From the NCBI RefSeq assembly GCF_040253635.1, contig NZ_JBEJGX010000005.1:1-19513 (forward strand): DNA of 19,513 nt. The letters run 5' to 3'. The DNA comes from Streptomyces sp. Edi2. GTDB taxonomy: Bacteria > Actinomycetota > Actinomycetes > Streptomycetales > Streptomycetaceae. Below are positions 5,330 to 19,513 of the stretch, one piece after another. Below the pieces are notes generated by a model, which worked only from the letters and a program-made list of their open reading frames with translations, searched no databases and was not told the origin of the DNA. The position numbers were made by a program, and so were the translations under genes. Position 1 is the stretch's first letter. Every line of letters starts with the position of its first letter.

Positions 5330-5458
5330 GCCGGACTCGGGCCAGGAGTACGGCGGCCGGTCACCGGCGGGACGGCCGGGCGCAGCGGGCGGCGGACGCG
5401 AACGGACGGCGAACCGGCGGCAGGCCGACGGGGCGCAGGAGCGGACGGGTCTGGCCGG

Positions 5459-5797
5459 CTACCGGGCGCTGATGGTGGCCGACCAGCCGCTGCGGCTGAA
5501 GTGGCAGGCGCCGTCCGGGTCGACGCGTACCGCTGCCCCCGCGATGGGCAGGTCGCCGTCGATGACGAGCCAGGTGCGGATGCTGTCCAGCTCGTCCCAC
5601 AGCCAGCGCGGGCCGCCCTGATGGACGGTGGGCACATCCCGGGCACCGGCGGCCGTGGCCCGGGCCCAGGAGCCGTCCGGGTGCAGCATGTAGGCGGTGC
5701 GGGAGCCGTCCTTGGCCGCCTCCATGCGGTGCTCGATGCCGGGGACGGTCAGCTCCAGGGTGGAGCGCACGTCCCAGGTGCCGGCCACCCGCATCAC
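5459..5797 (-). pseudogene. 5'-truncated gene, C-terminal domain only
   Basis: The open frame begins GTG-ATG at 5797 (MMRVAGTWDVRSTLELTVPG) without a ribosome site and reads to TAG at 5459. The sequence is clearly protein-like (IEHRMEAAKDGSRTAYMLHP, VHQGGPRWLWDELDSIRTWL, GACHFSRSGWSATI). From memory it resembles the C-terminal segment found after the SAM-binding fold in a Streptomyces methyltransferase family. No SAM-binding motif is present and the frame upstream ends within 60 bases at the stop of the large gene, so the catalytic part is missing. This identification is tentative. It is probably a remnant left by recombination immediately downstream of 5857-8925. The 5330-5458 stretch holds nothing I can support. 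Confidence 0.5.
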
Positions 5798-5856
5798 GGA
5801 ACATCAACACGTCTGGCGATACGGGCAGTTCGGCCGACCAGAGCCGGCCGCGGAAG

Positions 5857-8925: not shown

Positions 8926-8989
8926 CTCCCGCGCCGCGTCGAGGACCTCGGCGTACAGGCGGGCCGCACGGCCCGGGGCGGCGGCCCGG

Positions 8990-9164
8990 CCGTGCGGCGG
9001 CCGCGTCCCGGTCCGGCCGGGCGCACCGGCGCCGGCGAGCAGGTCAGGACGTCGTCGGGCATCAAGCCGGCCCGGCCAGCACAGCCGACGGCCGGGACGG
9101 CGCCAGCGGGGCAGGTGAGGTCAGCGCCGGTGCGCCACACCACGCTCAGCACGTCGAACAGCAC
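8990..9164 (-). pseudogene. Probable N-terminal part of the large gene, in another frame
   Basis: GTG at 9164 opens VLFDVLSVVWRTGADLTCPA, then AVGCAGRAGLMPDDVLTCS, before turning into Arg/Pro-rich sequence. The downstream frame already carries GRAARLYAEVLDAARELL before its own first start. Moving between the two frames needs a one-base deletion between about 9060 and 8990. An AT-rich island at 9183-9202 just upstream could hold the promoter (minus-strand TAGAAC as a possible -10). Either the large gene is inactivated at its N-terminus or one base is missing from the assembly. The stretch 9205-9374 holds no gene I can support. Confidence 0.4.
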
Positions 9165-9374
9165 CCGGACGGCGCCTCGTTCTATGCAAAGTAGAAATAC
9201 CCAGCGGCGGCGGACCCCCTTGGCCGGCCGCGTCGCGCTCGCGCGGGCCGGAGGTGGTCGGGTCCGGGTCGAGTCGGAGGAACAGACGGTGGATTACGGC
9301 GGGGGCGGGCGGTGTGCGGTGCCCACGGCGTACGCCCGGCGGTGAGCGGCGGGTCGAGAGGGAGAAGTCGCCTG

Positions 9375-9421
9375 CCCTTCCGGCCGCCGGGAGCGTGCGG
9401 CGCTCCCGGCGGCCGGAAGGG
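9375..9421 (-). terminator. 21-bp perfect hairpin behind the zinc-ribbon gene
   Basis: Arms 9375-9395 and 9401-9421 are perfectly complementary over 21 bp with a five-base loop (TGCGG). It starts ten bases after the stop of the leftward gene ending at 9431. There is no U tract, which is usual for actinobacterial terminators. Confidence 0.8.
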
Positions 9422-9430
9422 GCGCGGGGG

Positions 9431-10132
9431 TCAGACCGTGGGGGTGTGCGCGGCGAGGGGCTCCGGGAGGTCCTTGGTGTACAGGCCCTCCAGGCCGGAG
9501 GGCGCGATCAGGCCCCAGGTGAAGGTGTCGGTGTCGGCGTAGAACCAGCCGCGCAGGCGGCTGGGGGCGTCGTGGGTGCGGATGACGCCTACCCCGTAGA
9601 CCTCAAGAGTCCCGTCGGCGAGGCCGTCCTGCTGCTCCTTGGTGAGGTGGCCGACGGCGTAGAACTTATCGAATTCCTCGTCGGCGACGACTGCGAGGAC
9701 GGGGCTGAAGTCGTCTTCGCCGCCGTCGTACACGCTGTTCATGCGCTCGCGGGCGAGAGCGGCCAGTGCTTCCGTGCGGGTGGGGCAGGTGGTCTCGTAG
9801 AGGACGCCGTCCTTGTGGCGGGGTTCCTCGTCCCTGTCGTACGTCCAGACCTCGACCTGGTGGTGGGCGTGGAGGCCGATGCCGTTGTGGCGCATGCGCA
9901 GGAAGCCGAAGGGCTTGCCGTCGACGACGACGGGGTGGCGCTCGGTGCAGAACTCGCAGGTGATGCCGACGTGGCGCAGGAAGCGCTGGAGGCGGGGGAA
10001 GCGCGCGAAGCGGGTGCCGCAGTTGCAGCAGGTGAACACCTTCCAGCTGGTGGGGTCGGCCGCCGAGTCGTGGTTGCAGCGGGGGCACGCGTAGGTCGCG
10101 CCGGTCTGCCAGTTGATCACGGTGTTGCCCAT
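9431..10132 (-). CDS. Zinc-ribbon protein of unknown function, 233 aa
   Basis: ATG at 10132 is preceded by GAGGAAG with a short spacing. Residues 16-38 contain CPRCNHD and FTCCNCGTRF, and CEFC follows at about 59-62, giving CxxC pairs that should bind one or two zinc ions. The centre has conserved-looking aromatic and histidine residues (MRHNGIGLHAHHQVEVWTYD). The C-terminal half is acidic alpha/beta (DFSPVLAVVADEEFDKFYAV; GWFYADTDTFTWGL). It is soluble, with no signal peptide. It is transcribed divergently from 10256-10780 from an inverted-repeat operator/promoter, has a 5' leader hairpin at 10150-10163 and a strong terminator. Nucleic-acid binding is plausible from the ribbon but the family is not recognised. 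Confidence 0.75.
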   Translation of the reverse strand: MGNTVINWQTGATYACPRCNHDSAADPTSWKVFTCCNCGTRFARFPRLQRFLRHVGITCEFCTERHPVVVDGKPFGFLRMRHNGIGLHAHHQVEVWTYDRDEEPRHKDGVLYETTCPTRTEALAALARERMNSVYDGGEDDFSPVLAVVADEEFDKFYAVGHLTKEQQDGLADGTLEVYGVGVIRTHDAPSRLRGWFYADTDTFTWGLIAPSGLEGLYTKDLPEPLAAHTPTV

Positions 10133-10149
10133 GGTCTTCCTCCTCTACT

Positions 10150-10163
10150 CGGGGGTTCCCCCG
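10150..10163 (-). promoter_or_regulatory. 5' leader hairpin
   Basis: A G5/C5 inverted repeat (CGGGGGTTCCCCCG) lies between the predicted start near 10174 and the ribosome site of the zinc-ribbon gene. It could limit translation or stabilise the leader. Confidence 0.4.
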
Positions 10164-10168
10164 CCGTA

Positions 10169-10223
10169 TTGTCTATTGAGACTGTACATGAATCACGGAC
10201 CGATGTACAGTCTTAATAGACAA
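10169..10223. promoter_or_regulatory. Divergent promoter pair inside an inverted-repeat operator
   Basis: The arms at 10169-10189 and 10203-10223 are inverted copies of one 21-base element containing TGTCTATTRAGACTGTACAT, with 20 of 21 positions matching and 13 bases between them. Each arm supplies a TACAGT -10 for one direction and a TGTACA -35 for the other: rightward TGTACA 10183-10188 and TACAGT 10206-10211, leftward mirrored, both with 17-base spacers. A protein bound to this repeat would shut both directions at once. The same element recurs at 10825-10878. Confidence 0.75.
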
Positions 10224-10255
10224 CGCGATTCGCCCGCCTCTCCCGGGAGTACGAC

Positions 10256-10780
10256 ATGAACCCCAGCACCCGCCCGGCCGTCTGGCGCTTCGCCGACCGC
10301 GACACCGTCCGCACCGCCGACGGCACGACCTGGCACCGGGGACTGCGCCGGCCCCGCTCCTGGGCCGCCCTCGGCAGTGACCTGCCCGAGCGCGACGACG
10401 AGGCGGTGCGCGCGCTGCTCGGCATCGACCCGCACGCCGTCTTCGCCCCCGCCGGGCCTGACGCCTACACGGCGCTGCCCGGCCACGTGCTGGATACGCC
10501 GCAGGCCCTGGCGCTGCTCGACGTCCGCCCCGCCACCGGCGCGACGCTCTACCGGCACTCGCTCGACCGCACCGGGGCCTTCCTCGGGAGCAACCCGGGC
10601 AGGCGCAGCACCCCGGTGCCGGGCCTGCGTCCCGCCGACGTCCGCACGTCCCTGCGGGGTACGGCGGCGCGGCACAGCCGCGCCCGGATCACCTTCGACC
10701 GCGCCCACGGCCGCCTCCACGCCCGGTACGCGATCGGCAGCACCCTGCACACCCATACCTACGCCCTGACCGCCCCCTGA
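10256..10780 (+). CDS. Hypothetical protein, 174 aa
   Basis: ATG at 10256 has GGGAG six bases upstream. The protein begins MNPSTRPAVWRFADRDTVRT and is a soluble, Arg-rich alpha/beta protein with no Cys, no membrane segment and no obvious catalytic motif. The C-terminal part (ARITFDRAHGRLHARYAIGS, then THTYALTAP) has alternating strands. It is the first rightward gene of the operator-controlled unit and is divergent from the zinc-ribbon gene. Reading frame, composition and ribosome site are all good. I do not recognise the family. Confidence 0.7.
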   Translation: MNPSTRPAVWRFADRDTVRTADGTTWHRGLRRPRSWAALGSDLPERDDEAVRALLGIDPHAVFAPAGPDAYTALPGHVLDTPQALALLDVRPATGATLYRHSLDRTGAFLGSNPGRRSTPVPGLRPADVRTSLRGTAARHSRARITFDRAHGRLHARYAIGSTLHTHTYALTAP

Positions 10781-10781
10781 C

Positions 10782-10795
10782 CCCTGGGCCCAGGG
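10782..10795. terminator. Short perfect palindrome after the stop
   Basis: CCCTGGGCCCAGGG lies two bases after the TGA of 10256-10780. It has no loop beyond the centre and no U tract, so termination is only possible, not shown. Confidence 0.3.
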
Positions 10796-10824
10796 CGGGC
10801 GGACTCGGGCCGCTCTCGCCCCTC

Positions 10825-10878
10825 TGTCTATTAAGACTTGCACTCGCGCCGCACTGGATGTACAGTCTTAATAGACAA
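10825..10878 (+). promoter_or_regulatory. Second operator/promoter of the shared regulon
   Basis: The right arm 10858-10878 is identical to 10203-10223. The left arm at 10825-10838 keeps TGTCTATTAAGACT and then diverges. The rightward promoter is TTGCAC (10838-10843), 17 bases, TACAGT (10861-10866). Loss of the left-facing -10 fits the absence of a divergent gene here. It drives 10919 and the genes after it. Confidence 0.7.
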
Positions 10879-10918
10879 CAGGGCGGGCCGGAAGGCACGC
10901 GGACGTAAGGAGCGGCGC

Positions 10919-11116
10919 ATGACGAACGACCTTGAGATCCTCGACGGCATCCTCAACGCACCCCTCCCCCCGTGCGACCTCGGGTACTACGGCTGCGAGG
11001 GCACGGCCGTCGAGCGCATCCCGCACCCGACCGGAGAGGCGCTGGGCGAGAAGGACTGGCCCGACGTCTGGGTCTGCGGGGGGAACTGCGAGCGGAACGC
11101 GGAACGCGACTCGTAG
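10919..11116 (+). CDS. Small Cys-containing protein, 65 aa
   Basis: ATG at 10919 follows AAGGAG with seven bases spacing. The product MTNDLEILDGILNAPLPPCD continues LGYYGCEGTAVERIPHPTGE and ends with WVCGGNCERNAERDS. Cys at 19, 26, 53 and 57 are spaced as in a small treble-clef or zinc-knuckle protein. This is suggested only by spacing. It is the first gene behind the second operator. A longer open frame starts inside the promoter and is rejected. Confidence 0.65.
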   Translation: MTNDLEILDGILNAPLPPCDLGYYGCEGTAVERIPHPTGEALGEKDWPDVWVCGGNCERNAERDS

Positions 11117-11185
11117 CCCCCGGCCCGGCGACACCGCCGGGCCCCCAGCACCCGCACCCGCACCCCGTCCTCAAGGAGAACCCTC

Positions 11186-11434
11186 ATGCACCTGAGCTTC
11201 GCGGCCATGGCCCTGTACCTGTCGATGCACGACACCGGCGCCCTCGTCACGCCGTACGAGGTGCAGCAGATCCGCGCCGAGGCCGTGGCCCGCTGGGGGT
11301 ACGACGGACTGCGCGCGGAGTGCGTCAAGCGGGCGCTGTTCTGCGCCGCCGCCGAGCCGGACGCCCACAGCGACCGGGGCGAATGGGCCCAGTCAGCCGC
11401 CGCGTTCGTCGAGGAGCCCTACGAGACGCCCTGA
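11186..11434 (+). CDS. Small hypothetical protein, 82 aa
   Basis: ATG at 11186 follows AAGGAG by eight bases. Sequence MHLSFAAMALYLSMHDTGAL, then VTPYEVQQIRAEAVARWGYD, is helical and ends acidic (EWAQSAAAFVEEPYETP). The hydrophobic start is too short and interrupted for a confident membrane segment. It sits 69 bases after the preceding stop and is probably co-transcribed. Family not recognised. Confidence 0.65.
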   Translation: MHLSFAAMALYLSMHDTGALVTPYEVQQIRAEAVARWGYDGLRAECVKRALFCAAAEPDAHSDRGEWAQSAAAFVEEPYETP

Positions 11435-11484
11435 ACGCCCGTACGAGGACCCGCCCGCCATCACCCAGGAAGAAGGACCCGACC

Positions 11485-11799
11485 ATGGCCACCGCCTCCT
11501 ACTCCAGCGTCCGGTACCACCTCGGCAAGGTCTTCGACCTGAGCCGGACGGCCACCGGCCGCCGCTCGGGCCAGCGCTGGTCCGAAGGCGCCCAGGTCCG
11601 CACCTCGCACACGCACGGCGTGATCGTCGACTACCTGGAGAGCCACGCCGCATGGGGCTCGGACGGCTCGCTCCGGAAGAAGAAGCTCGACGCCGTCCGC
11701 GAGCACCTGGAGCAGCGCTTCACCGTGCGGGACCACCCCGCCCAGGACGGACGCCTCATCGTCTCCGGCCCCGCGCCCGCAGGCGGCACACCGAAGTGA
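11485..11799 (+). CDS. Small basic hypothetical protein, 104 aa
   Basis: ATG at 11485 has AAGGA about eight to ten bases upstream. The protein begins MATASYSSVRYHLGKVFDLS and has a His/Arg-rich middle (SHTHGVIVDYLESHAAWGSD). A strongly basic helix follows (LRKKKLDAVREHLEQRFTVR), with a Pro/Gly tail. The charge pattern would suit nucleic-acid binding but no domain is recognisable. It lies 50 bases after 11434, in the same rightward unit. Confidence 0.65.
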   Translation: MATASYSSVRYHLGKVFDLSRTATGRRSGQRWSEGAQVRTSHTHGVIVDYLESHAAWGSDGSLRKKKLDAVREHLEQRFTVRDHPAQDGRLIVSGPAPAGGTPK

Positions 11800-11868
11800 C
11801 GCCTCCCGCCGGGGCCCCGGGCACCCGGCTCCGCGCCGGACCGCCGTCATACCCTCGGCCGTGATTGC

Positions 11869-11882
11869 TATAAGAGACAGGA
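11869..11882 (+). promoter_or_regulatory. Promoter giving a leaderless transcript
   Basis: TATAAG at 11869-11874 is a good -10, with a weak GTCATA 17 bases upstream. The expected start falls at about 11881-11882, on the ATG itself, so the mRNA would be leaderless, which is common in Streptomyces. This gives the next gene its own promoter independent of the operators. Confidence 0.5.
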
Positions 11883-12481
11883 TGGCATTGAGCATGAGCA
11901 CACCCGACCAGCCGGACATCGACCTGGCCCGCCGCCAGGAGCCCCTGAGCCTGACCGACATCGGCCGGGCGTTCGGGCTCTCCTCACGCAGCACCGTGTA
12001 CCGGTGGCACAAGCCGCCGCGCCAGAGCGCGATGAACGGCAAGCCGCCCGCCACCAAGCCCGCGCTGCACGCCGTGGCCGAGGCCCTCGGCACCCCCCTG
12101 GACCCGGCCCTGGCGGCCAGTACCCGGCCGCGCTTCCCGGTCGACGTCGTCCTCGCCCTGGGCAAGGCACTGGGCTACCTCGACGCCGACGGGCGCATCG
12201 TCGAAGAGCTCCGCGCCAAGGGACGCGGGCGCTGGCTCCCCGCCGCCCCCACCACCGACCCCGCCACCAGGAACCGGCGCGTCTACACCAACCACCTCGC
12301 CACCGCCCTCGGCGTCACCAACGAGAACATCGAACGGGGCCTGACCCGGGGCACGCTCACCGCACCGGACGGCACCGACGAACTCGACCGCAACTTCTGG
12401 TGGACCCCGACCGCCAACACCATCCTCATCGACCACGCCCAGCGACGGAACCAGAAGCCGGACACCACGAAGTTCTTCTGA
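11882..12481 (+). CDS. HTH DNA-binding protein, 199 aa
   Basis: The start is taken at ATG 11882 because of the promoter position. ATG 11894 (MSTPDQ) and GTG 11861 are alternatives. Residues about 22-43 (LSLTDIGRAFGLSSRSTVYR) form a clear helix-turn-helix. A second similar pattern is at about 135-159 (YTNHLATALGVTNENIERGL), followed by a beta-like segment (DRNFWWTPTANTILI). No enzymatic motif is present. Similar two-HTH proteins occur on actinobacterial plasmids and phages. As the only recognisable DNA-binding protein in the unit it is a candidate to act on the operators at 10169-10223 and 10825-10878, but that is inference. Confidence 0.7.
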   Translation: MALSMSTPDQPDIDLARRQEPLSLTDIGRAFGLSSRSTVYRWHKPPRQSAMNGKPPATKPALHAVAEALGTPLDPALAASTRPRFPVDVVLALGKALGYLDADGRIVEELRAKGRGRWLPAAPTTDPATRNRRVYTNHLATALGVTNENIERGLTRGTLTAPDGTDELDRNFWWTPTANTILIDHAQRRNQKPDTTKFF

Positions 12482-12517
12482 CCCCCCCGCGAACCCCACA
12501 CCGGACGAGGAGCCATC

Positions 12518-12736
12518 ACGGACAACGACAACCGCTACCAGGCCAAGGTCACCGGCCTGGACGCAGGCACATGGACGTCCCGGCCCTTCAACAACCCCTA
12601 CCTGGCCGCCGGGCACCTGGGCGCGGAACTCACCGCGGCCGGCTACGACGCAGAGAAGGGCTGGGCGATCCGCCTCGCCGAGATCCAGCACCACAACCGC
12701 CGCTACGAGGTACTGGAGACGCACAGCACCCCCTGA
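12518..12736 (+). CDS. Small protein lacking a canonical start codon, ~72 aa
   Basis: A coding-quality frame reads DNDNRYQAKVTGLDAGTWTS and RPFNNPYLAAGHLGAELTAA, ending RRYEVLETHSTP and TGA. AGGAG at 12508-12512 is correctly placed for a start at 12518, but that codon is ACG. The codon before it is ATC, and there is no in-frame ATG, GTG or TTG. One transition (ATG to ACG) would explain it. The gene is either started at ACG or ATC at low efficiency or has recently lost its start. It follows the HTH gene by 36 bases. Family not recognised. Confidence 0.5.
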   Translation, partial: TDNDNRYQAKVTGLDAGTWTSRPFNNPYLAAGHLGAELTAAGYDAEKGWAIRLAEIQHHNRRYEVLETHSTP

Positions 12737-12981
12737 CCGGCGCACCGGGCCCGAGCGCCCGACTCCTCGGCGAGGCGAGCGGCGAAGACCGCGTTGCCGA
12801 CGTACGGGGCGACGGCGACCAGGGGCCGCAGCCCGGCCGGATCGAGTGCTTCGGCCTCCCACTGCACAGGATTGTCCGCATCGAGCCGGGACCTGCGGGC
12901 GACCACCCAGCCCGCCTTCCCCCAGGCCCACAGGCGCAACGGCGAAGGAGGATTCGGGCTCGCAACACCTTCCGGGCGCAC
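12703..12981 (-). CDS. Possible gene fragment, unknown function
   Basis: A leftward frame from GTG 12981 includes the protein-like stretch LWAWGKAGWVVARRSRLDAD, then NPVQWEAEALDPAGLRPLVA and VAPYVGNAVFAARLAEES. It overlaps the 3' end of the previous gene on the other strand and has no good ribosome site. It is at best a 3' piece of a decayed gene. The rest of 12737-13265 shows no other supportable feature. Confidence 0.25.
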   Translation of the reverse strand: MRPEGVASPNPPSPLRLWAWGKAGWVVARRSRLDADNPVQWEAEALDPAGLRPLVAVAPYVGNAVFAARLAEESGARARCAGQGVLCVSSTS

Positions 12982-13265
12982 CGCGGGCTGCGGGCGCAGC
13001 AGCCCGGCTGGGCGCCGGCCGTCCGTCCAGGGTGTCTCGGGTGCCGGCCTCCGGCCGTACGGCGCCTGTCACGCCCGCCGACGTCGAAAAGCACAGGTCA
13101 CCAGGGGGACACCACGGGGTGACACCGAGCAGGCCCGACGAGGTTCTGTGGGCCCGTTCTGGATGCGGCTGGACGGAAATGGACACTTCTGGACGCCGGC
13201 GGGGGCCGGGTGCCGCGGGGCCGGCGCCGCGGGCGGGTCACGACGGGCGGGACGGCCCGGGGCGA

Positions 13266-14160
13266 TCAGGTGGTCAGGCGTAGGGGTGGGGCGGTGCGGC
13301 GGGCGAAGGCCCTCACGCCGGGCAGGTCCGGCCGGCGGGCGGCGACGTCGGCGGTCAGCGCGCGTACCGAGGGACGGCGTGCCTCCTGCGGCGCGGCCCG
13401 TTCCACCCGCTGCAGCTGGTCGAACGCGGCCGGCACGTCACCGGCGGCCAGGAGCGCGCGGGCCGTGTCGGTGGCCGCGCGGGCCCGGCGCTCCGGCGTG
13501 GGCAGTACGGCGGGATCCAGGCGCACCGCGTACGCGAGGGCCTTGTCGACGTCGCCGAGCTCCCGGTGGATCCCGACCCGGTACAAGACGCACTGCGCCG
13601 GCGACAGCTCGCCCGCGGGCACCCGGGCCCCGGCCACGGCGTGGGTGAGGCGCGCCGTGCTCTGCTCGGCCCGGTCGGCGAACTCCCCCGCCATGGACGG
13701 CATACGGGCCTGCGCGGCGGTGTAGGCGGCGGACAGGGCCACCATCCCCGACACGTCCAGCACGGCCAGGCCCGGCCGGCGGACGGCGTCCAGCTGGTCG
13801 TGGGCCTGCGCCAGGAGCTGCAGGGCCTGGCCGGCGCGGCCCGTACGGCGCAGCGGCGTGGCGGCTGCCCGTGCCGCGGCCGCGAGGAACACCGGGTCGC
13901 CCGACCGGGCGGCCGCCGCTGCGGCCCGAGCCGCGAACGCGCCCGCCTCCTCCAGGGCGGCGTTCTTGACCGCCAGCTGGGAAGCGAGCACCCACACCCG
14001 CGCGGCGTGGCCAGCGCCACCCGGTCCCGTTTCCTCGGCCTCGTCCGCGCGGGCCCGCCGTCCCGCTCCACGGCCGGCGCCCGCGTGCCGCCCGCGGCTC
14101 CTGGCCGCGGACGGCGTAGTACCGGGCGAGGCCGGCGCCGGGACCGGCCGTGGCGGGCGA
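13266..14160 (-). pseudogene. TPR-type regulator, frameshifted
   Basis: The last ~260 residues are one good frame. It includes ASQLAVKNAALEEAGAFAAR, GDPVFLAAAARAAATPLRRT, and further helical pairs DLDAVRR and HRELGDVDKALAYAVRLDP. It ends DLPGVRAFARRTAPPLRLTT. This looks like the helical TPR-like C-terminal half common in Streptomyces XRE-family regulators. Upstream, GLARYYAVRGQEP lies in a second frame and PAVERDGGPAR in the third, so two one-base deletions separate it from the intact part. No N-terminal HTH can be read. A further piece of the same family is at 15180-15330. Confidence 0.55.
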
Positions 14161-14323
14161 CGGCGCAGCGCGGGCTGGAGGCGCCGGCTCCCGGAGCGCG
14201 GGCGAGCAGTGGCTGTTACGGGCGGGCGACGGCAGAGTGGAGGCCGCGGGAACGCGGCCCGGGGCGGACGCGGGATGGGCCGGGGCGACCGGCCGAAGAC
14301 GACGCGGTGCTGCGCGGGCGGGT

Positions 14324-14640
14324 TCAGGGGCGCCCGCCGAGAGTGGGCAGGCCGAGGTGGCCCGCACGCTTCGGCCGCGGCGGGCGGCACGGCCGTCCTT
14401 GAGGAGTTGGCGGGCCCGCGCGCGCCACGCCTGCGCCTCCTCGGGGCGGCCGGCCTCACGGTGCAGCGCGGCGACGCGCAGCATGGCGGCGCGGGTCCGG
14501 GCGGCCAGGACGTCGGCCACGGGCGCCAGGGGGCCCTGCACCTGGATCGCGCCCAGGGCGCCCCGCAGGCACAGCACGAGCCGGCCGTCCGGCTCGTGCT
14601 CGGCGAGGTCGCGCACGTAGACCCGGGCCCGGCTCAGGCT
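14324..14640 (-). pseudogene. Truncated paralogue of the 17289-17798 gene
   Basis: SRARVYVRDLAEHEPDGRLV, then LCLRGALGAIQVQGPLAPVA and EEAQAWRARARQLLKDGRAA, match the C-terminal two thirds of the protein at 17289-17798 nearly residue for residue. The first ~65 residues are absent: similarity stops at about 14640, next to the end of the 14699 gene. About four bases are missing near 14352 relative to the paralogue. This shifts the frame past the old stop (TGA 14326-14324) and fuses it to the following remnant. Confidence 0.65.
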
Positions 14641-14698
14641 CAGGCTCCCCGGTACGGCGGGCGCCGGCCCGGGGCGAGCGTGCCGGGGCCGGGGCTCG

Positions 14699-15085
14699 TC
14701 AGTACGTGCTGGACGGCGCCTGCGATGAGGAGCAGGCGCGTTCCAGTTCGGCGACCAGGTTCGCTCCGGTATCGCGGACAGCGGTGAGGGCGTGCCAGAC
14801 GGCGTCGGCCACCGTGCGCTTGGGCAGCGAGGGCAGGTAGAAGGCGACTTCCTCGACCAGCGAACAGAGGCGCGGCCCGCAGTCGGGCAGATCGAGTGTG
14901 ATCAGGGCCTCGTGCGCGTTCAACGGCCAGATGGCCAGCGGCTGCGCCCAGACGACGCCCGCGTTGTGGGCCATGCTGAGGAGACCATCAATGTCGTGCC
15001 AGTCGAACTCCGGCCCCTCGTCGTGCGGGTCGGCATCGGGGTCCCATTCGGCGAGCGTGTCCAGCAGCCATCCAACGTGAGGCAT
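14699..15085 (-). CDS. Acidic hypothetical protein, 128 aa
   Basis: ATG at 15085 is preceded by GGAGG with four bases spacing, which decides against the longer Arg/Pro-rich extension. The product begins MPHVGWLLDTLAEWDPDADP and has an acidic segment (HDEGPEFDWHDIDGLLSMAH). A beta-like core follows (AQPLAIWPLNAHEALITLDL) and then a helical C-terminal half (VADAVWHALTAVRDTGANLV). It is soluble, without metal motif. It is the last intact gene of the leftward run, and its upstream neighbour is a remnant, so its promoter is unclear. Family not recognised. Confidence 0.65.
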   Translation of the reverse strand: MPHVGWLLDTLAEWDPDADPHDEGPEFDWHDIDGLLSMAHNAGVVWAQPLAIWPLNAHEALITLDLPDCGPRLCSLVEEVAFYLPSLPKRTVADAVWHALTAVRDTGANLVAELERACSSSQAPSSTY

Positions 15086-15148
15086 GGTCCTCCAAGGGGT
15101 GAGGGAAACGTGCGGGAGGCAGGATGTCGGCGGGCGAAGGCGGCGACG

Positions 15149-15178
15149 CCGGCGGGCGGCGACGCCGGCGGGCGGCGA
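15149..15178. repeat. Two tandem 15-base units
   Basis: GACGCCGGCGGGCGGC is repeated head to tail with a partial third unit. It lies inside the TPR-family remnant and may be slippage-generated. Confidence 0.5.
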
Positions 15179-15179
15179 C

Positions 15180-15330
15180 CTCGGCCGTTCGGCCGGTGCG
15201 GCGCAGCGGGGTCGTGGCCGTGCGGGCCGCTGTGGCGGGCACCGCCGGGTCGCCGGAGCGACGGGCCTCATCCCGGCGCTCTCTCGCGTAGGCGTAGGCG
15301 GCCCCGGTGCGGCCGCGAGCGGTCCCCGCT
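15180..15330 (-). pseudogene. Internal fragment of the TPR regulator family
   Basis: One frame gives GRTGAAYAYARERRDEARRS, then GDPAVPATAARTATTPLRRT. This aligns with RSGDPVFLAAAARAAATPLRRT in the remnant at 13266-14160. Both ends are lost: it stops in the tandem repeat at 15149-15178 on one side and abuts the stop of the 15336-15749 gene on the other. It is a second degraded copy of the same family within 2 kb. Confidence 0.55.
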
Positions 15331-15335
15331 GTATG

Positions 15336-15749
15336 TCAGCCGGCCGTGGTGGTACGCGGTGCCGGGGGGTTGGCGCTCACAAACTGGAGGAACCAGTCGG
15401 GGACCTGTCCCCGACTGGCGTGGTGGTGCGTCCAGATCTCCCGGACGGGCAGGCGACCGAGGCCCTCGTCGGGCAGGACCACATGGCCGGTCACCTCGAT
15501 GCTGTTCCATCGGGGCGTGGCGTCGCCGTTCTGGAACCAGCGGACGCGCAGCCTGACGGGTCGGACGGTCTCGCCGTCCTCGACGGTGAAGTCCGGACCG
15601 CACTGCCCCTGCCATAGCCGCTCGTACGTACGCTGCGGCAGCTTCGCCGTCATCGCGTCGTCGTACTGCACCACCTCGTCGAACCGCTCCACACGCAGCG
15701 AAGGCGTGAACTGGGCGAGTACGGAAGGCTGGTCGGTCGGTTGCTGCAT
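15336..15749 (-). CDS. Hypothetical protein, 137 aa
   Basis: ATG at 15749 follows AAGGA eight bases upstream. The protein (MQQPTDQPSVLAQFTPSLRV, then GPDFTVEDGETVRPVRLRVR) is beta-rich, with a histidine pair near the end (REIWTHHHASRGQVPDWFLQ). The C-terminus is a short Pro/Thr tail. It begins 15 bases after the stop of the ParB-like gene, so the two form an operon. No signal peptide or membrane segment. The HHH motif is suggestive of metal binding but not diagnostic. Family not recognised. Confidence 0.65.
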   Translation of the reverse strand: MQQPTDQPSVLAQFTPSLRVERFDEVVQYDDAMTAKLPQRTYERLWQGQCGPDFTVEDGETVRPVRLRVRWFQNGDATPRWNSIEVTGHVVLPDEGLGRLPVREIWTHHHASRGQVPDWFLQFVSANPPAPRTTTAG

Positions 15750-15764
15750 GTGCTGCTTCCTTGT

Positions 15765-16226
15765 CTATGACGAGGCGGTCGGCCGCCCGGCGGGTACCGC
15801 TGGCGGGGCCGGAAACGATGTCTTGGCCGTCAGGCCACCTCCCCCGTCCCCATTACTCACGCGGGAGACAGGAACGTAGGCGGTTACGTGGGTCCATCCC
15901 CGCTCTACGGCAAGGGCGGTCCGGTGTGCGCCGTCGCGCAGGCCCTCACCGGGCAGGACCACCACCGGCGGCACTTCGTGCCCGCCGGCGTCGAGCCCAG
16001 CTTCCAGGGGCGTAAACCGGTCTTCGGCATCGTTGGCTTCCAGCTCCTCCCGCGCGTAAAGGAGGCCGATCTCGTCGATCGGCACTCTCGCCCGGGTCAG
16101 TTCGGCGCCGAGGTCGTCGTCCCCGTACAAGTCGAATCCGATGAGGTCGGCGGCCTCGCCGAGGGTGAGTGTCGTCCGCCAGGCTGCGCCCCACGTTGGC
16201 AGCTCAGCGGCGTGGATGGTCTTCAC
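15765..16226 (-). CDS. Small ParB/sulfiredoxin-like fold protein, 153 aa
   Basis: GTG at 16226 has AGGGGG seven bases upstream; the longer open frame runs back into the tRNA array and is rejected. Residues 84-118 (HEVPPVVVLPGEGLRDGAHR, then TALAVERGWTHVTAYVPV) carry the strand-then-DGxHR-then-helix pattern typical of ParB N-terminal and sulfiredoxin-like nucleotide-binding folds, with the conserved D-G-x-H-R at 98-102. Residues 1-80 are helical (TLGEAADLIGFDLYGDDDLG). No HTH or dimerisation domain follows, so this is not a classical partition protein. Stand-alone ParB-like domains occur widely on plasmids and phages, some with nuclease or NTPase activity. It lies 200 bases downstream of array 1 with no obvious terminator between. 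Confidence 0.55.
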   Translation of the reverse strand: MKTIHAAELPTWGAAWRTTLTLGEAADLIGFDLYGDDDLGAELTRARVPIDEIGLLYAREELEANDAEDRFTPLEAGLDAGGHEVPPVVVLPGEGLRDGAHRTALAVERGWTHVTAYVPVSRVSNGDGGGGLTAKTSFPAPPAVPAGRPTASS

Positions 16227-16429
16227 ACGTCGCCCCCTTCTGGTGTGGTGTCTACGCGGAGCATCTGCTCGGTACGCGGTGTGGGGCCGCGCGGGTCGCC
16301 TATCCGTCCCGACGGGGCCGGGCCACCACTCGTGGGGAAGCGGTGAGTTGAGTGTTCCTGCGAGGCGGCGCGTTCGCGCTGTCGAGGCCGGAGTGCCAAG
16401 CGAGCGCGCGTGTGGTGCGCGTTGGTGCG

Positions 16430-16504
16430 TACCCTCGGCGGGATTCGAACCCGCGGTCTCCCCCTTGAGAGGGGGCGAGATTAGCCGGACTACTCCACAA
16501 GGGC
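16430..16504 (-). tRNA. tRNA-Glu(CUC), array 1, short anticodon arm
   Basis: Acceptor stem GCCCTTG pairs with CGAGGGT (with G-U pairs) and the discriminator is A. D-arm GAG/CTC is present and the T-arm GCGGG-TTCGAAT-CCCGC is perfect. The anticodon triplet is CUC, read in the context C-T-CTC-A-A. The anticodon arm is one base short: CCCCC and GGGGG enclose only six bases, or the stem has four pairs plus a mismatch. CCA is not encoded. It is the last element of array 1. Confidence 0.75.
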
Positions 16505-16520
16505 GTGGTTTCCCGCCGTC

Positions 16521-16579
16521 GGCCGGGGACCGGATCAGATGGGGCCCGCGAACGGGCTTGCTCGTCACCTTCCCCGGCC
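16521..16579 (-). ncRNA. Structured intergenic RNA, copy 1
   Basis: The outer helix GGCCGGGG (16579-16572) pairs with CCCCGGCC (16528-16521). Inside, AGGT pairs with ATCT including one G-U, and GCCCG-TTCG-CGGGC forms a hairpin. CTGATCCGGTCCCC is identical in the second copy at 18867-18941. It lies 16 bases before the 5' end of tRNA-Glu in the transcript. It has no T-loop or anticodon arm, so it is not a decayed tRNA of the usual form. Confidence 0.5.
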
Positions 16580-16649
16580 GGGGCGGGGCCGCCGTCGGCT
16601 CCTCCCCGGGAGCCTTCGGCGACGCGTGCCAGCGGACCGGATCCGCCGG

Positions 16650-16667
16650 GGGAAGCATCACCTTCCC
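16650..16667 (-). other. Conserved small hairpin after tRNA-like gene 2
   Basis: GGGAAG and CTTCCC enclose CATCAC (plus-strand reading). The same hairpin, extended by one pair, follows the corresponding element in array 2 (18999-19018). It is a possible processing or stabilising element between array members. Confidence 0.55.
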
Positions 16668-16679
16668 GCTGACACGTCG

Positions 16680-16746
16680 TGAACTCTGCGGGTACTGCTC
16701 CCGCTCTTCCCCCACACGGGGGCGTGCTGCTGACACCACGAGTCCC
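16680..16746 (-). tRNA. tRNA-like element 2 of array 1, degenerate
   Basis: It aligns in position and acceptor stem (GGGACTC / GAGTTC) with 19030-19096. The D-stem is GTG/CAC. The anticodon arm is CCCCC-GTGT-GGGGG, so only four to six bases remain in the loop. The T-arm stem GCGGG/CCCGC is intact but the loop is AGCAGTA instead of TTCGAAT. Pair 1-72 is G-A. Isotype cannot be assigned and it is probably not aminoacylated. Confidence 0.45.
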
Positions 16747-16868
16747 AGAGGGCGCGCTTTCCCTCCTTCAACCCGCACCGGGGATCAACCGGGCAGGTTC
16801 GCTCTGTGTGCTGGTACGCGCCCTCTCAACGGGGACGTCGCCTCTGGAGGGGCGCACACCAACACATC

Positions 16869-16940
16869 GCGATCCGAGGGGATTTGAACCCCTGCCTTCC
16901 CCCACACGGGAGACGCTCTACCGGGCTGAGCTACGGACCT
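16869..16940 (-). tRNA. tRNA-like element 1 of array 1, isotype uncertain
   Basis: TAGCTCAG, GCTC/GAGC D-stem and AGGGG-TTCAAAT-CCCCT T-arm are canonical. The acceptor AGGTCCG/CGGATCG pairs at six of seven positions, with A1 opposite G72. The anticodon region CTCCCGTGTGGGGGAAG is two bases shorter than normal. GTG (His) follows a T as expected of position 33, but the stem is then imperfect. Called as a tRNA-like gene with possible GUG anticodon. Confidence 0.55.
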
Positions 16941-16982
16941 GCCAGACGGAAGCGAATCGGCCGCTCCCCACCGTCTGACGAA

Positions 16983-17006
16983 GGAAGGGGTCGATCGCCC
17001 CCTTCC
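16983..17006 (-). promoter_or_regulatory. Leader hairpin of array 1
   Basis: GGAAGGGG pairs with CCCCTTCC around TCGATCGC, just after the promoter and before the first tRNA-like gene. The second array has an analogous hairpin with the same ATCGATCG-type loop but different stem bases (19324-19347). Confidence 0.55.
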
Positions 17007-17016
17007 GACATTCAAA

Positions 17017-17046
17017 AGAATATCCCACAACCGCGCCTCACGTCAA
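17017..17046 (-). promoter_or_regulatory. Promoter of array 1
   Basis: Minus-strand TTGACG (17046-17041) and TATTCT (17022-17017) with an 18-base spacer. TTAAGATTTGAC overlapping the -35 is shared exactly with the promoter of array 2. The initiation region is AT-rich. Confidence 0.7.
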
Positions 17047-17288
17047 ATCTTAATTGTCATCGGGGCGGACTCTGCGCCTCGCGGTTCGACAACGCCGCGG
17101 GCGGGGCCGACTGACGGGCGGCAGGGTGGCGGCGGGGGCGTTGCGGGTGGAGTCGCACGAGGTGGCCCGGCTCCGGCGCGGCATGACCCGGTCAGCCCCC
17201 GACCCTGCTCGACCCTGCGACGTCTGTGTCTTCCCCGGCGGCCGGGCTGGTCCCGCCGCCACCAGGTCAGCAGCGTACGGCGGCCGGC

Positions 17289-17798
17289 TCAGGGGTGCCG
17301 GCCGAGGGTGGGCAGTCCGGCCGAGGCGGCCCGCACGCTCCGGCCGCGGCGAGCGGCCCGGCCGTCCTTCAGGATCCCGCGGGCCCGCCCCCGCCACACC
17401 TGCGCATCCTCGACGCGGCCGGCCTCGCGGTGCACCGCGGCGACGCGCAGCACAGCGGCGCGGGCCCGGGCTGCCAGGAGCTCGGCGACGGGAGCCAGGG
17501 GGCCTTCGACCCGTACGGCCCCGGCAGCGCCTCGCAGGCACAGCACCAGGCGCCGCTCCGGCTCGGCGGCGCCGAAGTCCTGCACGTACACCCGGGCCCG
17601 GCTGCGGCCGGTGGCGATCTCAGCGAGACGCTCCAACTCCGGCCACGTACAGGGCAGCAGGACATCCTCCAGCACCGTGCGCGGAGCCGGCCGCCACGAC
17701 GCCGCCCGCGGGCCGCAGTCTCCGCGGCGTACCCGTACGCCGATCACCGGCCAGGGCGCGCCGGTCAGCGCCGGATGCCGCAACTCGTCCTGACCCAC
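17289..17798 (-). CDS. Hypothetical protein, 169 aa, intact paralogue
   Basis: GTG at 17798 has GGAGG five bases upstream. The protein begins VGQDELRHPALTGAPWPVIG. It has a central ELERLAEIATGRSRARVYVQ segment and a strand-rich piece RRLVLCLRGAAGAVRVEGPL. It ends with two long basic helices (ARARAAVLRVAAVHREAGRV; AQVWRGRARGILKDGRAARR). The C-terminal two thirds are duplicated in the broken copy at 14324-14640. There, a TPR-type regulator piece follows directly, so this protein may normally be paired with such a regulator. Helical repeats with Arg-rich faces could be a protein- or nucleic-acid-binding module. Family not recognised. The stretch 17050-17288 shows nothing else. Confidence 0.65.
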   Translation of the reverse strand: MGQDELRHPALTGAPWPVIGVRVRRGDCGPRAASWRPAPRTVLEDVLLPCTWPELERLAEIATGRSRARVYVQDFGAAEPERRLVLCLRGAAGAVRVEGPLAPVAELLAARARAAVLRVAAVHREAGRVEDAQVWRGRARGILKDGRAARRGRSVRAASAGLPTLGRHP

Positions 17799-18326
17799 CT
17801 GTTCCTCCGTACCGGTCGGGGTCGCCTCACCGCAGTATCACCGCCCGGCCCGCCCAGCGGCCGGGGTGACGAACACCCGCCAGCCAGAGGGCGGAAGCAG
17901 GGTGTTGCCCGCTCCCCCGCAACACCCGGCCAGCCAACGGCGTCAACACGGGCCGGCGTCAACCGCGCACCGCGAGCGCGGGGCACTCGGACCACATCGC
18001 CGGCAGGTCGGCAACGGCACGGGCCGAGCGGCCGGCGGGAGGCCCTGGGACCGGAGCTCTCAGACGGCAGCAGCCGGGCGGGGAGCAACACCGCACGGTC
18101 ACCGCGGCGTTGCCGGGCATGGAGCAGCACACCAAGCAGGCCGCCGCGGGCATGGCGGCGCACACCCTCGTCGAGCCGCCTCCGCCGCGGCCCTGTGCCG
18201 TGCGAGTGAATCCCACGCGTCACATCGCATGGGGGCGCTACCGTGGGCAGCGCCCCTCTCCATGTGGGAGGCATGCCGAAGCCCCTTCCGCGCGGCCGCG
18301 CCGCGCCGGTCGATGGGTGGAGGAGG
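17799..18326. other. No supportable gene
   Basis: Open frames exist on both strands but are Arg/Pro/Gly/Cys-rich, change character abruptly and lack ribosome sites. I see no tRNA-like, repeat or promoter sequence here. Confidence 0.5.
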
Positions 18327-18373
18327 GGTCCGGCAGCGCCATCCCGGCCAAGGGAAGAGGGCGCTGCCGGACC
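18327..18373 (-). terminator. 14-bp inverted repeat behind a gene remnant
   Basis: GGTCCGGCAGCGCC at 18327-18340 is perfectly complementary to 18360-18373, with a 19-base loop. It lies about 20 bases beyond the end of the leftward remnant at 18393-18529, as a terminator would. Confidence 0.6.
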
Positions 18374-18392
18374 GTTTCATGAGGTCAGGAGA

Positions 18393-18529
18393 CCCAGCGC
18401 CCCTGAGCTTGGCTGTCAGGGCGGCAATACCGCGGAGGTGTTCGTGCAGCTCCAGCACTTCGTCCCTGCTCAGTCAGACCAGATCTGCGAACAACACGGG
18501 CCGGGGCGGGCGGCAATCAGCTCCAGCAG
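18393..18529 (-). pseudogene. Remnant of a small helical protein gene
   Basis: LLELIAARPGP in one frame continues as VLFADLV in the next frame, then a TGA, then LSRDEVLELHEHLRGIAALT and AKLRGAG in the same frame. The pieces read as one helical protein interrupted by a one-base deletion and a nonsense codon (TGA 18476-18474). No start or ribosome site is evident. A terminator-like repeat follows. Function unknown. 18530-18658 shows nothing else I can support. Confidence 0.45.
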
Positions 18530-18658
18530 ACGGGGCGCCGCGGCCGGCGCCGGCCGCCGGCGTCGAGGGCGGGGTGGGCCGCCGCGGGTCGCCTAGGAAG
18601 TCCGCGTCAGCCAGCAGGCGTGGGCAGGTTCTCGGCGGTGCCGGGCGCAGGCATGCGA

Positions 18659-18685
18659 ACGGCCCCGGGGCGTACCCGGGGCCGT
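18659..18685 (-). terminator. Terminator of array 2
   Basis: ACGGCCCCGGG at 18659-18669 pairs perfectly with CCCGGGGCCGT at 18675-18685 around a five-base loop, starting five bases after the 3' end of tRNA-Arg. Confidence 0.8.
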
Positions 18686-18689
18686 GGTG

Positions 18690-18761
18690 TGCTCCTACGA
18701 GGATTCGAACCTCGATCTCCGGATCCGTAGTCCGGTGTCCTCTCCGTTGAACGACAGGAGC
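18690..18761 (-). tRNA. tRNA-Arg(ACG)
   Basis: This 72-nt element folds fully: acceptor GCTCCTG/TAGGAGC (one G-U), D-stem GTTC/GGAC (one G-U), anticodon arm CCGGA-CTACGGA-TCCGG with ACG anticodon, T-arm CGAGG-TTCGAAT-CCTCG, discriminator A. CCA is not encoded. It is the best-formed tRNA in the window and has no counterpart in array 1. Confidence 0.9.
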
Positions 18762-18787
18762 CAGCACGCGCGTTGCGCGGTAATGCG

Positions 18788-18862
18788 TACCCTCGGCGGA
18801 TTCGAACTCGCGGTCTCCCCGCTGAGAACGGGGTGAGATGAGCCGGACTACTCCACGAGGGC
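18788..18862 (-). tRNA. tRNA-Glu(CUC), array 2, short T-stem
   Basis: Acceptor GCCCTCG/CGAGGGT. The anticodon arm CCCCG-TTCTCAG-CGGGG is perfect, with a seven-base loop and CUC. The T-arm reads GCGAG-TTCGAAT-CCGC, so one base is missing on the 3' side. The D-arm and variable region match the array 1 copy. The defect is in a different arm from that of 16430-16504. Confidence 0.75.
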
Positions 18863-18866
18863 ATGT

Positions 18867-18941
18867 CCTGCCTCGGTCGGGGACCGGATCAGGTAGGGCC
18901 CGCGAAGGGCTTGCCCATCACCTTCCCCTACCCGAGGCAGG
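18867..18941 (-). ncRNA. Structured intergenic RNA, copy 2
   Basis: The outer helix CCTGCCTCGG pairs with CCGAGGCAGG (10 bp), then GGGG pairs with CCCC. Inside, AGGT/ACCT pairs and GCCC-TTCGC-GGGC forms a hairpin. The inner sequence is nearly identical to 16521-16579, while the outer helix uses different bases and still pairs. It ends four bases before the 5' end of tRNA-Glu in the transcript. Confidence 0.55.
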
Positions 18942-18998
18942 TCCGCCGTTGGCTCCTCCCCAGGAGCCGCAGGCGAAGCGTGCCAGCAGGCCCGGTTC

Positions 18999-19018
18999 CG
19001 GGAAGCATCACCTTCCCG
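18999..19018 (-). other. Conserved small hairpin after tRNA-like gene 2
   Basis: CGGGAAG/CTTCCCG around CATCAC, the counterpart of 16650-16667. Confidence 0.55.
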
Positions 19019-19029
19019 CTAGCACGTCG

Positions 19030-19096
19030 TGAACGGACGGGACTCGAACCCGTATCCAGCCCCGCAGGGCTGCTCTGACCATTGAGCTACCGTCCC
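19030..19096 (-). tRNA. tRNA-like element 2 of array 2, short anticodon loop
   Basis: GGGACGG pairs with CCGTTC (pair 1-72 would be G-A). TAGCTCAATGGT and GAGC form a normal D-arm. The T-arm ACGGG-TTCGAGT-CCCGT is canonical. The anticodon stem CAGCC/GGCTG is perfect but the loop has only six bases, CTGCGG, so no standard anticodon can be assigned (GCG if T is position 33). Confidence 0.6.
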
Positions 19097-19217
19097 AGAG
19101 GGAGCGTCCTCCCCCCTTCAACCTGACCGGGGATCAATCAGCCAGGCCCGAACAACGTGCCGGTGCGTGCCCTCTCAACGGGGACTGCGCCTCTGGAGGG
19201 GCACACACCAACACTTC

Positions 19218-19283
19218 GCGACCCGGAGGGAGTCGAACCCCCAGCCCGGGTACCCCCCGGGCCAGCTCCACAGCTGCGAGCCT
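19218..19283 (-). tRNA. tRNA-like element 1 of array 2, degenerate
   Basis: Acceptor AGGCTCG/CGGGTCG with A1 opposite G72, as in its array 1 counterpart. AGCT-GTGG-AGCT is a tight D-arm. The T-arm GGGGG-TTCGACT-CCCTC is intact. The anticodon arm is GCCCGGG/CCCGGGC enclosing only five bases, GGGTA. Probably not a decoding tRNA. Confidence 0.45.
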
Positions 19284-19323
19284 GCCTGACGGCACAGACC
19301 GGCCGATCCCTCCCGTCAGGCGC

Positions 19324-19347
19324 CAACGGGATCGATCGCCCCCGTTG
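19324..19347 (-). promoter_or_regulatory. Leader hairpin of array 2
   Basis: CAACGGG pairs with CCCGTTG around ATCGATCGCC, about ten bases after the -10. It matches the placement and loop of the array 1 leader hairpin. Confidence 0.55.
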
Positions 19348-19356
19348 ACATACACA

Positions 19357-19385
19357 ACTCTACTCACATCAAGGCTTGAAGTCAA
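19357..19385 (-). promoter_or_regulatory. Promoter of array 2
   Basis: Minus-strand TTGACT (19385-19380) and TAGAGT (19362-19357) with a 17-base spacer, preceded by the TTAAGATTTGAC element shared with array 1. This is close to the vegetative consensus. Beyond it, 19395-19513 shows no feature I can support. Confidence 0.75.
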
Positions 19386-19513
19386 ATCTTAAGCGCCACA
19401 TCGATGGAGGGCGGCGGGGACCGGACTGACCGGGAAGACACCGGGCGGCACACGACGAGCAGACGCCGGGGCAGCCCAGCGGCGGGCGGGCGCAGGCATG
19501 ACCGCCAGCGCCC

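Follow-up and report, generated by a model that had tools for sequence, protein, structure and literature searches.

Conserved, modular structured RNAs with tRNA-like parts in the terminal repeat of a Streptomyces linear plasmid

The stretch of DNA analysed here (the window) is a whole contig of Streptomyces sp. Edi2, NZ_JBEJGX010000005.1, 19,513 nucleotides (nt) long, and between positions 16430 and 19385 it carries two arrays in which tRNA genes stand together with tRNA-like sequences and structured RNAs. Our data indicate that both arrays belong to a family of structured RNAs that is conserved and modular and whose tRNA-like parts mostly cannot decode. The conserved unit is a set of shuffling modules, not one fixed transcript. 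In our reading this RNA family is new; Rfam 15 recognised nothing but tRNA in it. The structure is secure; the function proposed below is what we infer from it.

Both arrays lie on the minus strand in the order promoter, leader hairpins, tRNA-like 1, spacer, tRNA-like 2, structured RNA and tRNA-Glu, and Rfam, ARAGORN and alignment bore out the order and coordinates given by a sequence-only reading of the window. The arrays are true relatives, with 75% identity over 643 nt (370 bits). The covariance models of Rfam 15 and ARAGORN found tRNA-Glu(CTC) at 16430-16504 (array 1) and 18788-18862 (array 2), tRNA-Arg(ACG) at 18690-18761 (array 2), and tRNA-like matches without readable anticodon at 16869-16940 and 19029-19096. 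The scans missed array 1 tRNA-like 2 and array 2 tRNA-like 1, which were revealed by homology and covariation. In array 1, leader hairpin 1 (16980-17009, consensus fold) has the self-complementary loop CGATCG, and leader hairpin 2 (16941-16979, consensus fold and covariation) contains CGGCCG and ends 1 nt before tRNA-like 1. tRNA-like 1 (16870-16939, scan and cloverleaf fit) has a 6-bp acceptor, a 5-bp T stem and a 4-nt anticodon-arm loop. The spacer (16746-16869, covariation; 139.8 bits with our spacer model R1) consists of a CGAN linker, a long helix P1 and hairpins P2 and P3. tRNA-like 2 (16680-16745, cloverleaf fit and covariation) has lost the T-loop consensus and is followed by the structured RNA with helices P4-P6 (16508-16679, consensus fold and covariation). 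In array 2, leader hairpins 1 and 2 (19284-19350, consensus fold) score 106.8 bits together with tRNA-like 1 in our leader model R2. Here tRNA-like 1 (19219-19282, alignment and cloverleaf fit) has a short D-arm hairpin and an anticodon arm with a 7-bp stem and a 5-nt loop. The spacer (19096-19218, consensus fold; R1, 127.1 bits), tRNA-like 2 with the 4-nt loop TGCG (19030-19095, scan and cloverleaf fit) and the structured RNA P4-P6 (18866-19029, alignment and consensus fold) follow.

A promoter at the head of each array, also part of the sequence-only reading, was confirmed as sigma-70-type by a scan of 3.2 kb, in which the array promoters were the only two sites (three pattern matches, against 0.1 +/- 0.3 in shuffles). 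They are TTGACG-18-TATTCT at 17017-17046 in array 1, with the same layout directly before the leader in relatives, and TTGACT-17-TAGAGT at 19357-19385 in array 2. The best -10 box ends 5-7 nt upstream of leader hairpin 1 in 21 of 22 leader copies, and 16 of the 22 have TTGAC and TAnnnT spaced by 17-18 nt. In several copies TGACCCTTTTAA or a variant stands directly upstream of the TTGAC box, for example upstream of position 6376 in L010; with the promoter box, TGACCCTTTTAA makes a TGAC direct repeat about 14 nt apart, a possible operator. At the other end of array 2, a strong hairpin 3' of tRNA-Arg (18659-18685; -27.4 kcal/mol, z -3.75) agrees with the terminator proposed earlier as far as the fold goes. 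The terminator itself is unproven because no stem with a T-run behind it turned up in the terminator scan.

The genome of 9.8 Mb is assembled in six contigs, of which the window is C5; the related plasmid records that have names are of Streptomyces. In BLAST, the left end of contig C1 (328,740 bp) corresponds to window positions 5270-19513 (99.4% identity), the right end to positions 8441-19513 inverted (99.7%), and both C1 ends match one another up to the same border. Therefore, the window is a terminal inverted repeat of the 329-kb linear plasmid C1. The contig end at 19513 coincides with the inner boundary of the C1 repeat, so the window is an unplaced copy of it. Arrays 1 and 2 are both present at each end of C1, a further spacer-bearing array lies at 71.7 kb on C1, and contig C2 (297,118 bp) has two more.

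For comparison, 16 arrays from Streptomyces plasmids and contigs, including the two of the window, were aligned; two near-identical NBC_00239 rows were dropped. The order leader, tRNA-like 1, spacer, tRNA-like 2, structured RNA recurs in other genomes, which the sequence-only reading had named as a check: the structured RNA is kept between tRNA-like 2 and the next tRNA in 12 of the 16 arrays, two of them the window's own. According to ARAGORN, the tRNA after the structured RNA in these 12 is Glu in eight (A1, A2, C2a, hal_b, G028a, viol, WM and N1601) and Val(CAC) in C2b, and there was no call in hal_a, MMBL and glob. In the S. halstedii array, the hypothetical protein annotated at L010:8043-8261, overlapping both tRNA-like 1 and the spacer, is probably a spurious gene call.

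The consensus folds are supported by compensatory changes, which were seen in 17 of 31 pairs of the spacer, 15 of 33 pairs of the leader with tRNA-like 1 and 9 of 44 pairs of the tail. The leader alignment holds 14 of the 16 arrays (glob and viol left out) with pFRL3 and G256, the tail alignment 12 of 16, and the tRNA-like 2 alignment all 16 with a third copy from Streptomyces WM6378. In each of the four alignments, the covariation score was reached by none of 500 shuffles, which keep the relatedness of the rows and whose figures are not probabilities. Sliding the partner columns by 1-3 reduced the paired cells from 94.6-97.6% to 35-60%. Further pair types, a weaker measure, were reached by 48 (leader), 112 (tail) and 56 (tRNA-like 2) of the 500 shuffles. 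Since the six doubly changed pairs of tRNA-like 2 were reached by 69 of 500 shuffles, support for this part rests on the score and on its doubly changed cells (33, against 11.0 in shuffles). The covariation in these segments and the promoter layout of the leader copies uphold the earlier view that spacers, promoters and hairpins are conserved.

The tRNA-likes keep the acceptor/T-stem half, and their D and anticodon arms change shape. A cloverleaf script was given 16 copies of tRNA-like 1 (from 15 of the 16 arrays and pFRL3), 11 of the 16 copies of tRNA-like 2 and three tRNAs. It fitted 25 of the 27 tRNA-likes and gave no fit for tRNA-like 1 of hal_b and viol or for both copies of tRNA-Glu. The acceptor was paired at 6 of 6 positions in 21 of the 25 fitted tRNA-likes and at 6 of 7, 5 of 7, 5 of 6 and 5 of 6 in the others, so that none has the canonical 7 bp; the tRNA-Arg control paired at 7 of 7. 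In the leader alignment, the tRNA-like 1 acceptor is fully paired, with six pairs, in each of the 16 copies. D arms range from near-normal to a mini-hairpin, and tRNA-like 1 of S. violascens is damaged, having lost its T arm. None of the 25 has a 7-nt anticodon loop; the anticodon-arm hairpin has 4-8 bp and a loop of 3-6 nt. Because the cloverleaf fit favours long stems, a 7-nt loop was also forced on 23 of them (tRNA-like 2 of N1304 and hal_b, although fitted, were left out); 11 allowed a symmetric loop, and one of these, from NBC_01601, had U33. The tRNA-Arg of array 2 is canonical, with a 7-bp acceptor, a 7-nt loop and the T-loop TTCRANN (Rfam, 59.5 bits). On these stem and loop fits, tRNA-likes 1 and 2 probably cannot decode, and the description of the locus as simply a tRNA array does not hold.

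The sequence-only reading had also taken the whole transcript as the unit kept. This was not the case because the modules are shuffled and reused before protein-coding genes. In WM6378 a third spacer copy (59.7 bits) comes directly after tRNA-Glu. NBC_00637, examined by eye, has a promoter-like stretch followed by structured RNA and tRNA-Glu, with no tRNA-like there. In a second unit of MMBL 11-1, leader and tRNA-like 1 precede a spacer whose P3 is immediately followed by a Glu-like tRNA sequence, and the one tRNA that ARAGORN reports in this unit is a tRNA-Arg. Promoter, leaders and tRNA-like 1 stand upstream of an 86-amino-acid gene of pFRL3, where some 50 nt separate tRNA-like 1 from the start codon, and of an intact relative of that gene in G256. 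They also stand upstream of a 217-amino-acid gene on four plasmids, C1, C2, NBC_00239 and S. halstedii (S. halstedii at L010:6320-7340, the others at L009:7600-8640, L082:4300-5330 and L084:220-1250), the C1 copy of the module being partly deleted. In the plasmid collection, the 217-amino-acid protein is encoded by NBC_00239 and S. halstedii only. CCA follows the discriminator in five of the six protein-gene versions and CTA in that of S. halstedii; among chromosomal tRNA genes CCA is encoded in 3 of 30. Neither protein had a Pfam match at E up to 1, and the 217-amino-acid protein had weak PHROGs matches only. The leader module was absent from two homologues of the pFRL3 gene on other plasmids. 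As tRNA-like 1 and its promoter also head protein genes, they seem to be a reusable RNA module, and the function of the module seems to be selected.

The array family is rare, and every named certain match is from Streptomyces. A blastn search of 72,556 plasmid records matched eight Streptomyces records, seven with spacer-bearing arrays and an eighth, pFRL3, with leader and tRNA-like 1 only; one Euzebya record was matched through a tRNA alone. At E 0.01, spacer model R1 matched 4 of 392 same-genus genomes, three strongly (87-140 bits; G284 among these appears from its coordinates to be NBC_01304) and one weakly, and 2 of 296 class-level genomes, one being the genome studied here and one judged false. 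The R1 match in G534 (47 bits), without a tRNA nearby and by eye within an apparent protein frame, was judged false, and that in G241 (32.8 bits) equals the level of reverse-strand self matches (21.6-36 bits). Leader model R2 listed all 392 genomes at its E limit and gave more than 100 bits in four of them; the next score among the matches listed was 62.2 bits, and the listed matches at this score and below were taken as ordinary tRNAs. A further tRNA-like at L087:3742-3813, with an encoded ACCA before an apparent reading frame, lies on a 73-kb contig of a same-genus genome and scores only 43.8 bits with the leader model. A blastn search over the 392 genomes counted 80 of them, with best scores of at most 56.3 bits outside G000, G028, G284 and G256. 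An exact 16-mer found 30 stretches in the species-genome collection; two were real Streptomyces arrays (L069 and L075), and a metagenome-assembled genome of Streptosporangiaceae had two fragments on opposite strands. A viral origin was considered and rejected: array 1 had no match in 50,697 phage records, and three patterns gave 1, 3 and 3 stretches in IMG/VR, none with an ARAGORN tRNA. Giant plasmids of Euzebya (L013) and Curtobacterium (L120) have longer tRNA arrays, the latter with RNA ligase and HAD genes beside it.

In the window arrays and in seven loci, only tRNA exceeded the Rfam 15 thresholds. Searches at E up to 5 with the covariance models of GOLLD, ROOL and OLE, over 3,051 bases of the window and 58,265 bases of the seven loci, gave no match. 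GOLLD lies within tRNA arrays, may contain a tRNA and forms a cage (PMC6582537, PMC12286853). The GOLLD RNAs of mycobacterial tRNA arrays and phages resemble our arrays in that a structured RNA stands beside or contains a tRNA or pseudo-tRNA on mobile elements of Actinomycetes. They differ in that the RNA described here has no Rfam match, has two tRNA-likes with dedicated leaders, and has modules that are reused before protein genes. The tRNA-like domain of transfer-messenger RNA (tmRNA) is an alanine-type tRNA mimic without anticodon and with a G-U near the acceptor end, and tRNA-like 1 resembles it in these traits. It differs in that ARAGORN made no tmRNA call here. The Y RNA YrlA is likewise a non-coding RNA with a tRNA-like module without usable anticodon, yet its model (RF02553, gathering score 69) reached 23 bits in array 1 and 21.7 bits elsewhere on C2. 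No Ro60/TROVE protein was found on the plasmid contigs, and the one partial match in this genome is chromosomal, on contig C3. tRNA arrays of giant linear plasmids with structural changes in the anticodon domain are known (PMC12803027). Our arrays, like those of phages and of giant linear plasmids of the Mycobacterium avium pS2b type, cluster real tRNAs on a giant linear plasmid. The M. avium arrays have 26-27 tRNAs for 19-20 amino acids, whereas here few tRNAs are joined to conserved non-tRNA structures. Mobile-element tRNAs can counter tRNA-cleaving defences (PMC10264068, PMC11555353). Such phage tRNAs share with the present arrays their place on mobile DNA and a possible counter-defence role; they decode, whereas tRNA-likes 1 and 2 probably cannot. 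Of the array tRNAs, Arg(ACG) and Trp(CCA), carried on a mobile element, are redundant with the host set, as both were among the 30 chromosomal tRNAs looked at. No paper listed in our searches of open-licence PubMed Central, which does not cover subscription papers, describes such an RNA in its title or abstract.

Seventeen positions on 10 replicons, including the NBC_00637 unit, which lacks tRNA-likes, and the leader module of pFRL3, lie 5-72 kb from a replicon end (Kolmogorov-Smirnov p 6e-7; p 9e-4 with the innermost position per replicon). This subtelomeric position is only suggestive because accessory genes crowd the ends of giant linear replicons. Both plasmids of this strain encode a PF09414 RNA ligase (L125:5965-6732 and L126:6777-7592). 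A relative of it occurs in 15 of the 72,556 plasmid records, among them four of the seven with spacer-bearing arrays. About 2.6 kb from the C2 ligase, L126:10237-10860 has a sub-threshold match to PF18143 (HAD, RNA-repair type).

We tentatively favour, with rather less than even confidence, a tRNA-mimic leader that would act as decoy or sensor and would be attached to a tRNA supply on mobile plasmids. In its favour we count the compensatory changes in the segments, the lack of a 7-nt loop and a 7-bp acceptor beside a retained acceptor/T-stem half, the CCA encoded in most protein-gene versions, the subtelomeric position, the RNA ligase of both plasmids and of four array-bearing plasmid records, and the precedents for counter-defence tRNAs. 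The sequences show, near the ends of giant linear Streptomyces plasmids, a promoter directly followed by two leader hairpins and a conserved tRNA-like RNA, the latter probably unable to decode. What comes downstream varies: in some operons it is spacer, tRNA-like 2, structured RNA and real tRNAs for Glu, Arg, Asp or Trp, in others a gene for a protein. The tRNA-likes would offer enzymes that handle or attack tRNAs an acceptor/T-stem half whose 3' end resembles NCCA, and the real tRNAs on the same transcript might refill the pool when such enzymes act. The subtelomeric DNA of the plasmids would then hold an RNA locus for counter-defence or self-protection. We infer the steps from mimic to decoy or sensor and from there to counter-defence. 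Compensation for host tRNA cleavage is possible. Codon compensation, which had also been offered, is unlikely because GAG and CGC are common codons in GC-rich genomes and a tRNA-Arg(ACG) is present on the chromosome.

Several observations weigh against a decoy or sensor. Protein-gene versions and some copies of tRNA-like 2 no longer have the T-loop consensus, and decoding may still be possible for the NBC_01601 tRNA-like 1 (TGC, U33). ARAGORN, which possibly imposes a 7-nt loop, labels 9 of 18 scanned tRNA-like 1 copies tRNA-Ala (AGC, CGC or TGC); two others were called Leu or Gly, two had no readable anticodon and five gave no call. One such Ala call is at L014:19950-20024. No tRNA-cleaving partner was identified. 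An RNA ligase as a tight partner of the arrays is unsupported, as 11 of the 15 ligase plasmid records have no array by blastn, and five ligase neighbourhoods without arrays had no tRNA in the stretches covered, up to 20 kb on each side. The hairpins abutting both tRNA-likes would suit a fixed scaffold at least as well. The Ala calls bear on origin too: in 12 of 16 tRNA-like 1 copies the second acceptor pair to form is a G-U, and the two features together suggest that tRNA-like 1 descended from tRNA-Ala. If positions are counted from the U that precedes the D arm, this pair falls at 3-70, the alanine identity position.

The main alternative, which we consider rather unlikely, is a large ornate structured RNA of the GOLLD or ROOL kind, in which the tRNA-likes would be domains, self-complementary loops would drive a dimer or cage, and the tRNAs would ride along. 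GOLLD, which forms a cage and lies within tRNA arrays, speaks for it (PMC6582537, PMC12286853). In the consensus folds both tRNA-likes are held alike: each starts 1 nt after a hairpin, and its acceptor is followed by a purine, a linker and a helix. The linker CGAN follows the discriminator in 16 of 16 copies of tRNA-like 1 and 12 of 16 of tRNA-like 2. Predicted openness was compared between 16 copies of each tRNA-like, the array tRNAs (10 Glu and 9 Arg or Asp) and 30 chromosomal tRNAs; the alignment was used to place some of them. The 8 nt upstream are less open for tRNA-likes 1 and 2 (0.19 and 0.15) than for chromosomal tRNAs (0.37; p 5e-4 and 1e-5), with array Glu at 0.29 and array Arg/Asp at 0.47. 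When just the last 4 nt are taken, neither tRNA-like differs significantly from array tRNA-Glu (p 0.22 and 0.18), and tRNA-like 1 against Arg/Asp gives p 0.06. CGGCCG is present in leader hairpin 2 of 16 of 16 arrays, and the leader-1 hexamers (CGATCG, TGATCA, CGGCCG or wobble versions) are self-complementary in 16 of 16 when wobbles are allowed. These palindromes only suggest a dimer or cage, and palindromes this short may be chance products; CGGCCG is missing from the second MMBL unit, and when sequences were folded singly, an open loop held the complete hexamer in no more than 9 of 17 copies for leader 1 and 8 of 17 for leader 2. The modules also occur separately, unlike a fixed scaffold, and none of the GOLLD, ROOL or OLE models matched at E up to 5.

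Two further explanations fit less well. The tRNA-likes might be processing signals only, at which RNase P and RNase Z would free spacer RNA, structured RNA, tRNAs and mRNAs. The best-kept part is the acceptor/T-stem half, the recognition core of RNase P, and the short distance to the start codon in pFRL3 would suit such a signal. However, the leaders are predicted to be paired up to the cleavage site, an encoded CCA such as that of most protein-gene versions is expected to block RNase Z, and leaders, spacer and tail are conserved structures themselves; we regard this explanation as unlikely. An ordinary mobile tRNA array with decayed pseudo-tRNAs, for which the Ala calls, damaged copies such as the S. 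violascens tRNA-like 1, and the altered anticodon domains of giant-linear-plasmid arrays (PMC12803027) could speak, is very improbable. Decay produces neither compensatory changes nor a fully paired 6-bp acceptor in most fitted copies from many plasmids.

The purpose of tRNA genes on phages and plasmids is unsettled. The present data show a tRNA-like shape that is kept by selection in molecules that probably do not decode, beside real tRNAs and under the same promoter. This separates 'tRNA mimic' from 'codon reading', and the decoy, sensor and scaffold ideas are testable in culturable Streptomyces. The work adds a structured-RNA family without an Rfam 15 match and a 5' leader common to tRNA operons and protein genes. 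More speculatively, and with considerable doubt on our part, the family may form a new class of RNA: a tRNA mimic that does not decode, is linked to a promoter and associates with itself, with tRNA-Ala as its probable ancestor and perhaps charged with alanine as tmRNA is. Such an RNA would provide the tRNA operons and mRNAs of giant linear plasmids with a shared 5' module, and by sensing or trapping enzymes active on the acceptor half it would link their action to the expression of the downstream tRNAs or protein.

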